From assembly GCF_020991085.1 (NCBI RefSeq), contig NZ_CP087719.1, positions 1,054,001-1,118,000 on the forward strand: a stretch of 64,000 bases of DNA, read 5' to 3'. Shown piece after piece: positions 35,896 to 38,169 of the stretch. Source of the DNA: Roseomonas sp. OT10. Lineage in GTDB: Bacteria > Pseudomonadota > Alphaproteobacteria > Acetobacterales > Acetobacteraceae. Below the pieces are notes generated by a model. The model worked only from the letters and a program-made list of their open reading frames with translations, made no database searches and was not told where the DNA came from. The position numbers and the translations under genes were made by a program. The number at the start of each line of letters is the position of its first letter. The stretch's first letter is position 1.

Positions 35896-36648
35896 TCAAG
35901 GCCGCGGGGCGCGACCCACGGGATCGTGTGCGATCGGACGCAGCAGCGCGGCGGCGGCGGCGACGGCCAGCACGGCGAAGGCCAGCCCGCCCGGCACCCA
36001 CATCAGCAGCCCGCCGAGCTGCTGGTCCTCCAGCGGCGTCAGGCCCCAGGGCAGGGTGGTGCCGGCATGCGGCGCGAAGAGCGGCCGCGGCGCCAGGGTC
36101 AGCATGGCGCCGAGCAGCCCGGATTGCGCGGCCGTGCCGATCCCGGCGGCGAAGGCCAGTTCAGGCCGCGACGACGCACCCTGCCACAGCCCGCGCCAGA
36201 GCCAGGCGGCACTGGCCAGGAGGGTCAGGTGCATGGCCCAGTAGGCCGGGGTGCTGGCGAAGGTCGCCGCATAGGGCAGCGGCAGGTGCCAGGTCCAGAG
36301 CGCCAGGGCGAAGGCGCCGGCCGACCCCAGCAGCCCCGCGGCCCCGGGCGGGCGGACGGCGTCGCGCCAGCCGGCGGCGAGCAGCGGCGCCGCGACCAGC
36401 ACGATCAGCAGGTGCTGCGCCACCCGTGCCGAGAACAGCGCGACCGACAGGCTGCACAGCGGCGAGACCAGCGCCAGGGCCAGCACCGCCCAGCCGCCCA
36501 GGACGAGGCCTCGCCCGCCCGGCCGTGCCCCGCGCCACAGCACCGGCAGGGCCAGGAGCAGCGCGGCGAGCAGCACCGGGTCCAGGTTCCAACCCGCCGC
36601 GCCGGGCAGGGGCGGCGCGCCGCAATAGGGAAGGGTGGCAGGGTCCAT
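35896..36648 (-). CDS. ctaG: Cytochrome c oxidase assembly protein, caa3 CtaG type
   Basis: A 250-residue membrane protein with about seven hydrophobic segments belonging to the Caa3_CtaG family. It carries LCSLSVALFSARVAQHLLIVLVAAPLLA, where the S(V/A)xFSxHMxQHxL-type motif has Arg in place of the first His, and EDQQLGGLLMWVPGG, which is strongly conserved. It helps form the active oxidase, probably in CuB/CuA assembly. The ATG at 36648 follows GGAGG. It precedes ctaC by 96 bp and is the first gene of the respiratory locus. Confidence 0.88.
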   Translation of the reverse strand: MDPATLPYCGAPPLPGAAGWNLDPVLLAALLLALPVLWRGARPGGRGLVLGGWAVLALALVSPLCSLSVALFSARVAQHLLIVLVAAPLLAAGWRDAVRPPGAAGLLGSAGAFALALWTWHLPLPYAATFASTPAYWAMHLTLLASAAWLWRGLWQGASSRPELAFAAGIGTAAQSGLLGAMLTLAPRPLFAPHAGTTLPWGLTPLEDQQLGGLLMWVPGGLAFAVLAVAAAAALLRPIAHDPVGRAPRP

Positions 36649-36785
36649 CGCCCGATCCTCCAGGGGCCCGCCGGCACGGGCAAGCCACGCCTGGTTGATC
36701 GCCGCCGCGCAGACCGGCCATGGCGGGGGCGCCGGGCCGGACCCCTTGGCTCCACCGGCGGGAGGCGTATCTCTGCGTGGCTTCC

Positions 36786-36862
36786 GCGGGGACGACCCCG
36801 CCCGGTTGCCTCTCCGGCGGCCGCCCCGGTTCCGGCGGGGGAGCGAGGCGGGACGGCCCGCC
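36786..36862 (+). promoter_or_regulatory. Guanidine-II (mini-ykkC) riboswitch
   Basis: Two perfect six-pair hairpins with ACGR loops occur in the leader of the SugE-type gene: 36786-36801 (GCGGGG-ACGA-CCCCGC) and 36847-36862 (GGCGGG-ACGG-CCCGCC). They are 45 bases apart; the second ends nine bases before the GGAGG ribosome site at 36872-36876. Guanidine-II riboswitches consist of two such hairpins whose ACGR loops pair through guanidinium and raise access to the ribosome site. The linker is on the long side for the class. The downstream guanidinium exporter fits exactly. Confidence 0.82.
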
Positions 36863-36881
36863 GCCTTCGCCGGAGGCCATG

Positions 36882-37202
36882 ATGGCCTGGATCATTCTCT
36901 TCGTCGCCGGATTGCTGGAGGTCGGCTGGGCCGTGGGGCTCAAGCAGACGGACGGCTTCACCCGCCCCATCCCCACCGTGCTGACCCTGGCCGCGATGGT
37001 CGCCAGCGTCGTCCTGCTGGGCCTGGCCCTGCGCAGCCTGCCGCTGGGCACCGCCTATGCCGTCTGGACGGGGATCGGCACGGTCGGCACCGTGCTGGTC
37101 GGCATGGCGCTGTTCGGCGAGCCGGCCGATGCCCTGCGCCTCGGCTGCATCGCCCTCATCGTCGGCGGGATCGCCGGGCTGAAGATGCTGTCGCCGCAGT
37201 GA
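36882..37202 (+). CDS. sugE: SMR guanidinium exporter SugE/Gdx
   Basis: A 106-residue four-helix small multidrug resistance protein. The Gdx/SugE subtype is shown by LLEVGWAVGLKQTDGFTR with the membrane-embedded Glu (about residue 13), and by GTAYAVWTGIGTVGTVLVGM. Gdx members export guanidinium in exchange for protons as antiparallel dimers in the inner membrane. The ATG at 36882 is chosen over the ATG three bases earlier because it lies five bases after GGAGG rather than two. The leader has a guanidine-II riboswitch-like structure, so expression is likely induced by guanidine. Confidence 0.93.
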   Translation: MAWIILFVAGLLEVGWAVGLKQTDGFTRPIPTVLTLAAMVASVVLLGLALRSLPLGTAYAVWTGIGTVGTVLVGMALFGEPADALRLGCIALIVGGIAGLKMLSPQ

Positions 37203-37251: not shown

Positions 37252-38169
37252 TCAGCCCGCCGCCTGCGCCTTGCAGTAGCGCGCGACCTCCTCGTGGGTC
37301 ATGAAGCAGACGTCGCCATGGCCGCGGATGTAGGTCACGAGCCGGTCCAGCAGCGCGATGCGGGAGCGGTGGCCGATGACGTGCGGGTGCATGGTCAGCA
37401 GGAACAGCCCGCCCTCGGCATAGGCGCCGTCGAACTCGGCACGGAAGATCTCCTCCACCGCCGAGGGGGCGGTGTAGGGGCGCAGGGCGGAGAAGCGGAC
37501 GAAGTTGAAGTAGGGCGCGTCGTCGCGGATCCATTCCGGCGGCAGCTCGACGATGCCGGTGGGCTCGCCGTCCGCGACCAGCTCGTACGGATCGTCATCC
37601 GCCATCAGGCTGGAATCGTAGAGCAGCCCCAGCTCCCGGATGATGGACATCGTGTCCACCGAGAAGTCCCAGGAGGCGGTGCGGATGCCGACCGGGCGGC
37701 GGCCGGAAACCTTCTCCAGCGTGTCCGCGGCGCGGAAGGTGAGGTCGCGCTCCACCCCCGGCGGCAGGCTGGTATTGGCCTCGTGGATCCAGGAATGGAT
37801 GCCGATCTCGTGGCCTTCCTCCGCCACGGCGCGGACCTCGTCCGGATAGAGCAGGGCGGAGACCGCCGGGTAGAAGAAGCTCGCCTTTACCCCGTGCCGG
37901 TCGAGCAGCGCGCGGATTCGCGGAATGCCCTGGCGGTTGCCGTACTGGCCCTGGCTGATCCGCATCGGGCTCTCGTCCGCGTCGCGCAGCGGGATGGTGT
38001 CGTGGTCCGCGTCGAAGGAGAGGGTGACGCAGCAGCGCGCCCCGTCCGGCCACAGCGCGGGGCGCATCGACCGCCCGGCCCGTGCCCGGCCGGTGATCTT
38101 CCGCCAGGTTTCCTCGGGCCATTCCCAGGGCTTCGGCGCAGGGGGCTTCGGCGCATCGGCATCGGGCAT
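37252..38169 (-). CDS. Polysaccharide deacetylase-family protein (PuuE/HpPgdA-like)
   Basis: A 305-residue NodB-homology hydrolase with no signal peptide. Motifs are VTLSFDADHDT (metal-binding Asp and catalytic Asp), IGIHSWIHE (His-x-x-x-His-like metal site), GIRTASWDFSV and LTMHPHVIGHR. The cytosolic location and the FDADHDT and HPHVIGHR forms resemble the allantoinase PuuE and the HpPgdA group more than cell-wall deacetylases. An amide-hydrolysing role on a small molecule is therefore likely. The neighbouring amidases, carbamoylase and amidohydrolases fit this. It is convergent with sugE and divergent from the next amidase. Confidence 0.83.
   Translation of the reverse strand: MPDADAPKPPAPKPWEWPEETWRKITGRARAGRSMRPALWPDGARCCVTLSFDADHDTIPLRDADESPMRISQGQYGNRQGIPRIRALLDRHGVKASFFYPAVSALLYPDEVRAVAEEGHEIGIHSWIHEANTSLPPGVERDLTFRAADTLEKVSGRRPVGIRTASWDFSVDTMSIIRELGLLYDSSLMADDDPYELVADGEPTGIVELPPEWIRDDAPYFNFVRFSALRPYTAPSAVEEIFRAEFDGAYAEGGLFLLTMHPHVIGHRSRIALLDRLVTYIRGHGDVCFMTHEEVARYCKAQAAG

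Follow-up and report, generated by a model that had tools for sequence, protein, structure and literature searches.

How is a guanidinium exporter gene controlled when the RNA in front of it resembles a known riboswitch class that the standard family search does not call? This question is raised by the sugE/gdx gene of Roseomonas sp. OT10, which lies in the window analysed here, a stretch of DNA of 64,000 nucleotides (Table 1). The first-pass annotation had proposed a guanidine-II riboswitch upstream of a SugE/Gdx exporter. Our analysis supports this proposal, as the motif, the type of gene and the comparative evidence agree. In this work we argue that a riboswitch of the guanidine-II (mini-ykkC) type with an extended linker controls the translation of Gdx through an anti-Shine–Dalgarno segment in that linker, and we give this whole statement a probability of about 0.6. 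It is held at that level because a rival without a linker anti-Shine–Dalgarno shares the same identity, and because the evidence for the pairing depends on p values of 0.01–0.03. The identity alone, i.e. that a working guanidine-II type switch stands before gdx, is very probably correct. The riboswitch class is already known; what is new is the form of the linker and the loss of this form from annotation.

Table 1. Features of the sugE/gdx locus, in positions of the window
Feature	Position	Strand	Details
ctaG	35896-36648	minus	PF09678; one flank of sugE
Possible promoter TTGGCT-16 nt-TATCTC	36746..36773	+	Own scoring; weak; ends 12 nt before P1
P1 hairpin	36786..36801	+	GCGGGG-ACGA-CCCCGC; RF01068 match 36786-36824, 19.2 bits
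P1-P2 linker	36802..36846	+	45 nt
Possible linker hairpin	36803..36823	+	8 pairs including two G-U, 1 nt after P1; minimum-energy fold
Putative anti-Shine–Dalgarno segment	36832..36841	+	Pairs with 36864-36873, extending P2
P2 hairpin	36847..36862	+	GGCGGG-ACGG-CCCGCC; second half of RF01068, 12.8 bits
Shine–Dalgarno sequence GGAGG	36872..36876	+	Read from sequence
sugE/gdx, Gdx-type small multidrug resistance exporter	36882..37202	+	106 aa; alternative ATG 36879 gives 107 aa
Polysaccharide deacetylase	37252-38169	minus	PF01522; other flank of sugE

The anatomy of the leader is as it had been described. Two perfect ACGR hairpins are found exactly where they had been placed, with 6-bp stems and the loops ACGA (P1) and ACGG (P2). 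The nine bases claimed between P2 and GGAGG (36863-36871) and the linker length of exactly 45 nt are likewise correct. The stems are GC-rich, with G-C pairs closing the loop and the cores GGACGACC and GGACGGCC, and the element is placed before a guanidine exporter gene, close to its ribosome site. Two ATGs compete as the start of this gene, one 2 nt behind GGAGG (36879) and the other after a 5-nt spacer (36882). We take ATG 36882 as the probable start of sugE/gdx, as it gives the MAW beginning that most SugE homologues have. A consensus scan of 36640-36900 identified neither a sigma-70 promoter nor a terminator at its threshold. In relatives, −35/−10-like pairs lie 7-13 nt before P1, e.g. TTGCCG/TATATG in L001, TTGACC/TATCCC in L002 and TTGACC/TATGCG in L047.

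The gene had been called a SugE-type member of the SMR family, and this call holds, as it matches the NCBIfam model PRK11431.1 SugE with 129.2 bits, a narrow margin over the cut-off of 126. The Pfam match is PF00893, the SMR family. The closest solved structure is that of Gdx-Clo (6wk5, E 1e-28), with EmrE chains at 2.8e-10 or weaker. In the portion of the Gdx-Clo literature that we drew on, the guanidinium-binding residues are given as E13, W16, S42, Y59 and W62, and W16 is named as the mark of Gdx against Qac proteins (PMC7695847). By a hand count in the 6wk5 alignment all five are kept in the window protein. Like Gdx-Clo (PDB 6wk5), to which it aligns over nearly its whole length, the window protein keeps the key residues; its sequence has diverged from that of Gdx-Clo. 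The exporter is of the Gdx type, with a predicted guanidinium/proton exchange.

One explanation for such a leader is that the DNA before this SMR gene, being GC-rich, contains the hairpins by chance. The region is indeed GC-rich, the Rfam score is below its cut-off, and the fold of the whole leader is no more stable than that of shuffled sequences (z −0.5; 54/200 shuffles are at least as stable). However, tandem pairs (two ACGR hairpins separated by 5-70 nt) whose stems have at least 5 bp occurred in 0/100 dinucleotide shuffles of the window and in 0/3000 shuffles of 36649-36878, and relatives carry the motif in front of the same gene too. When stems of 4 bp were allowed, 2/100 shuffles of the window gave such a pair. 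The real window hosts just two ACGR hairpins with six or more Watson–Crick pairs on both strands, and these are P1 and P2. A motif search with the P1 sequence, allowing up to 3 mismatches, was uninformative, with 15 matches where 22.6 were expected. The view that the pairing of motif and gene is hard to explain by chance is borne out by the shuffles and by the recurrence of the motif before the same gene. A chance origin is contradicted by the shuffles together with the homologous leaders, and we regard it as extremely improbable.

The homologous leaders come from a survey of 154 SugE loci (L001-L096 and L116-L173, where L081 is the window; L097-L115 and those beyond L173 were left out). These relatives were drawn from genome contigs (the best 80 loci of at least 570), from the genus (15 genomes), from the class (best loci only, with a match in 128 of 385 genomes) and from the order (likewise best loci only, 189 of 250 genomes matching). 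As these are the best-scoring loci of longer lists, the survey leans toward near relatives. The first-pass annotation had held that homologous leaders losing the ACGR loops or the pairing would speak against a riboswitch. In a strict search, which asked for two ACGR hairpins and for stems of 4 bp or longer, 87 of the 153 other SugE leaders keep the tandem pair. The total is 88/154 with the window included, and 66 are without the pair. Twenty of these 66 were scanned with Rfam, of which five score above the RF01068 cut-off (L148, L149, L150, L153 and L168). Since these five pass, the figure of 88 is a lower bound.

The pair is kept in the sister gene L001 and in the Azospirillum relatives L002, L011 and L047, among others. 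In the SugE tree, which is built on few columns and in which the bootstrap is not settled, the sister of the window gene is L001, a gene of a Hyphomicrobiales MAG (support 95/90). In the L001 leader the linker measures 13 nt, and the score of 36 bits exceeds the RF01068 cut-off. The window gene lies outside the group of the congener SugE genes (the best ones from 14 congeners, L082-L095), which fall on one side of a branch with support 100/91 in the same tree. Among the 14 congener leaders the pair is found in seven, with linkers of 12-17 nt, a single hairpin is detected in L088, and six have none. The leaders of L082, L084 and L085, which are from the same genus and carry the congener-type SugE, have no ACGR pair and match no other RNA family at the gathering score.

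The Rfam mini-ykkC search of the leader, which had been proposed as a check, gave a divided answer: the family is the expected one, and the score is too low. RF01068 (Guanidine-II) is the sole family matched in 36730-36900 at E values up to 10, with 19.2 and 12.8 bits against a cut-off of 32. No RNA family reaches its gathering score in the whole window, and a search of this bacterium's own whole genome with RF01068 gave 0 matches. The same genome search, run as a control, has matches in 2/14 well-known control genomes. Across the bacterial family, RF01068 is found in 16/200 genomes at E values up to 0.001, of which 13 are above the cut-off.

This shortfall is common to leaders with long or structured linkers. 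None of 20 leaders with a long linker or a hairpin in the linker, the window included, exceeds the RF01068 cut-off. These 20 are all 17 leaders with linkers of at least 25 nt (the window too), together with L017, L028 and L033, which have linkers of 20-22 nt and a short hairpin. From 20 short-linker leaders, chosen by hand and thus non-random, 18 exceed the cut-off, with L023 and L116 failing. In the Rhizobiaceae group the P1 stems deviate from the consensus (GCAG before the loop), and this deviation may contribute to the missed Rfam calls there. Like RF01068, the window element has two GC-rich ACGA/ACGG hairpins before the ribosome site of sugE/gdx; unlike it, the window linker is longer than the reported range and possibly structured. 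Because 19.2 bits is below the gathering score of 32, and because the long- and hairpin-linker leaders share this failure, the window element is a long-linker variant that is outside formal membership of RF01068 by the curators' score. Its unusually long spacer hides the element from the standard RNA-family search.

The first-pass annotation had also described the linker as longer than usual. This is confirmed, as the range given for guanidine-II linkers in the part of the literature consulted is 7-40 nt (PMC7544219), compared with 45 nt here. Among the 88 pairs, 71 have linkers of 11-22 nt; the other 17, belonging to the window and to 16 relatives, have linkers of 25-62 nt. For 14 of these 16 long-linker relatives the linker can form a hairpin that lies 0-1 nt behind P1 and leaves 6-11 nt single-stranded. 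When compared with shuffled linkers, ten of these hairpins reach p 0.05, and those of L006, L136, L047 and L123 miss it. L039, L002 and the window depart from this pattern of a hairpin with 6-11 nt left over. The Fisher value, 2e-8 for the 17 rows, counts related rows as if they were independent and is indicative only.

A good example of a structured linker is found in ten Rhizobiaceae leaders (L003, L004, L006, L007, L008, L012, L017, L021, L028 and L033), which share a covarying linker hairpin after P1. All 6/6 pairs of this stem show changes on both sides and 86.7% of the cells are paired, with P2 being invariant. The covariation score of the whole structure is 0.303 versus a mean of 0.109 for shuffled alignments (0/500 reach it) and at most 0.092 for slid versions. 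Weaker measures are the number of pairs with changes on both sides, which 14/500 shuffles reach, and the number of pair types, which 66/500 reach. We consider the predicted linker hairpin of the Rhizobiaceae group to be well supported. A 14-row alignment of the hairpin-linker leaders places the groups out of register, and three aligned 40-nt linkers are too close to judge. In those parts of the literature that we searched, we found no description of linker hairpins in guanidine-II riboswitches.

For the window itself, the claim that the linker is able to form its own stem fares less well. A stem at 36803-36823 is possible and has indirect support from the minimum-energy fold, but it is no better than the stems of shuffled linkers (p 0.815 in a test where the pair constraint tolerated a non-standard outer pair; in a separate test 107/200 shuffles fold as well). 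Like the Rhizobiaceae hairpin-linker leaders (e.g. L004 and L021), the window has room for a hairpin directly after P1 and misses the Rfam cut-off. Those leaders keep 7-10 nt single-stranded (seen in 7 leaders) and have covariation (in 10 leaders); in the window the possible stem is separated from P2 by 23 nt and is without statistical support.

What might the linker do? In the class model, as far as it is set out in the sections we consulted, control is proposed to be translational and of the ON type, with an anti-Shine–Dalgarno in the linker that is removed upon loop kissing (PMC9094411, PMC7544219, PMC9300104). The excerpted account of the kissing complex describes it as collinear, so that the linker must span both stems (PMC5486947). 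In the window, P1 and P2 are both retained in the minimum-energy fold, where 36832-36841 also forms ten pairs with 36864-36873 that are stacked near P2 and cover the first GG of GGAGG. The probability of this pairing is 0.74-0.92 when P1 and P2 are imposed; in the free ensemble P1 has a probability of 0.88-0.91 and P2 of 0.62-0.67. Freeing GGAGG costs 7.6 kcal/mol between the minimum-energy folds (−65.3 and −57.7). By ensemble energies its opening costs 10.6 kcal/mol, the third highest of 78 leaders, a value that a fraction of 0.03 among 60 linker shuffles attains. The duplex between the linker and the ribosome site of the window has p 0.013 when the linker is shuffled and 0.01 when the tail is, all in tests that use mononucleotide shuffles on related rows. 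The pairing in the window thus exceeds that of its shuffled controls.

These results are consistent with the following mechanism, in which we infer the ligand, the kissing, the direction of regulation and the strain through the tether. When guanidinium is absent, the 3′ half of the linker (36832-36841) would pair with 36864-36873, up to the start of GGAGG, and this pairing would lengthen the P2 helix and shut the ribosome site. When guanidinium is present, one ion would bind each ACGR loop and the P1 and P2 loops would kiss. With the loops kissed, the tether would forbid the extension of P2, the site would open and gdx would be translated; a P2 extended by ten pairs would probably be too long for the rest of the window linker to span. 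Guanidine would most likely induce the translation of gdx.

The same pairing was looked for across the survey. As a general feature the linker anti-Shine–Dalgarno is not supported, there being no enrichment among the surveyed leaders. The pairing between linker and ribosome site reaches p ≤0.05 in 2/57 leaders (the window and L002), in 4/82 and in 4/78, with the window counted in each. The linker was shuffled in the 57- and 78-leader tests and the tail in the 82-leader tests; the 57-leader duplex test included one false pair assignment, L029 (89 nt), that is absent from the strict 88. The signal of L002 is absent from the opening-energy test of 78 leaders, and in that test the group mean is 5.77 kcal/mol versus 5.78 kcal/mol for shuffled linkers. 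Because there is no enrichment across leaders, the class model of an anti-Shine–Dalgarno in the linker is unsupported by our pairing tests, and the p of 0.01-0.03 in the window could be luck.

This leads to the most serious rival, a genuine guanidine riboswitch that works without a linker anti-Shine–Dalgarno. The linker pairing would then be an accident of GC-rich sequence and the ribosome site would be closed otherwise, e.g. by the GGCCATGATGGCC hairpin that spans the start codons, or by the P2 loop and 3′ arm. The start-codon hairpin is a perfect GGCCA-TGA-TGGCC (36875-36887) that covers the end of GGAGG and both possible start codons, and its four outer pairs (36875-36878 with 36884-36887) have a probability of 0.96-0.98. 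This rival gains from that value, from the lack of linker complementarity enrichment in the leaders as a group, and from the tails, which match the ACGR loop and 3′ arm of P2 at p ≤0.05 in 21/82 leaders and the near-identical loop and arm of P1 in 20/82. Of the same 82 leaders, 5 match with a reversed query and 3 with a shuffled one, and 6/88 leaders with tails of more than 30 nt were left out. Since 11 of the 21 are Bradyrhizobium genes or are placed among them in the tree, the 21 represent a smaller number of independent cases. The window is not among them, and its match to the P2 loop and 3′ arm has p 0.80, whereas its linker match has p 0.01. We consider this rival unlikely, and it is the one that weighs most on the linker mechanism.

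It is also conceivable that the riboswitch has decayed, the hairpins persisting after an expanded linker abolished switching. The 13-nt linker of the sister L001 implies that the length of the linker changed between sisters, and some congener leaders (L082, L084 and L085) are without the motif. The window, however, has perfect 6-bp stems and perfect loops in the two hairpins, and 16 of the other 87 pairs combine linkers of at least 25 nt with intact hairpins. Decay is therefore improbable on these grounds, well behind a switch that closes its ribosome site by other means. Our preferred reading is still that of a guanidine-II type switch that acts through the 3′ half of its extended linker.

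The survey and the window can be joined in a broader reading, which is tentative and which we rate somewhat short of even odds. Guanidine-II riboswitches would include an overlooked long-linker form, seemingly of several origins, which falls systematically below the Rfam cut-off. The extra length would be absorbed by a hairpin immediately after P1 (in the window one and perhaps two) that acts as a strut, so that the loops could not kiss while the rest of the linker is paired with the ribosome site.

The gene neighbourhood gives some indication of how this arrangement came about. Neither ctaG nor sugE lies within 1.5 kb on either side of the six nearest congener deacetylase homologues (77-83% identity), and sugE was not found within 1.5 kb of the congeners' ctaG loci (L199-L204 and L215-L229 compared). 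The control for this neighbour search recovered sugE in 16/16 known loci. Because the congener deacetylase and ctaG loci are without sugE, the gene and its leader look like an addition to this lineage, in an arrangement that appears to be lineage-specific.

These results are of importance for surveys of guanidine regulation. Counts of guanidine-II that rest on the RF01068 cut-off miss leaders with long or structured linkers, and the guanidine response is therefore probably under-counted in Alphaproteobacteria. Furthermore, the variant makes it testable how a very small two-hairpin aptamer reaches the ribosome site. A general linker anti-Shine–Dalgarno is unsupported in the surveyed leaders, some of which have a ribosome site that matches the ligand loop. 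In these leaders the loop that binds the ligand may itself compete for this site.

Finally, the GACGR loop and 3′ arm of the aptamer have their complement in the sequence from the Shine–Dalgarno to the start (e.g. GGAGGGTCGTC-ATG) in L134, L014, L018, L031, L038, L044, L090, L166, L172 and others.
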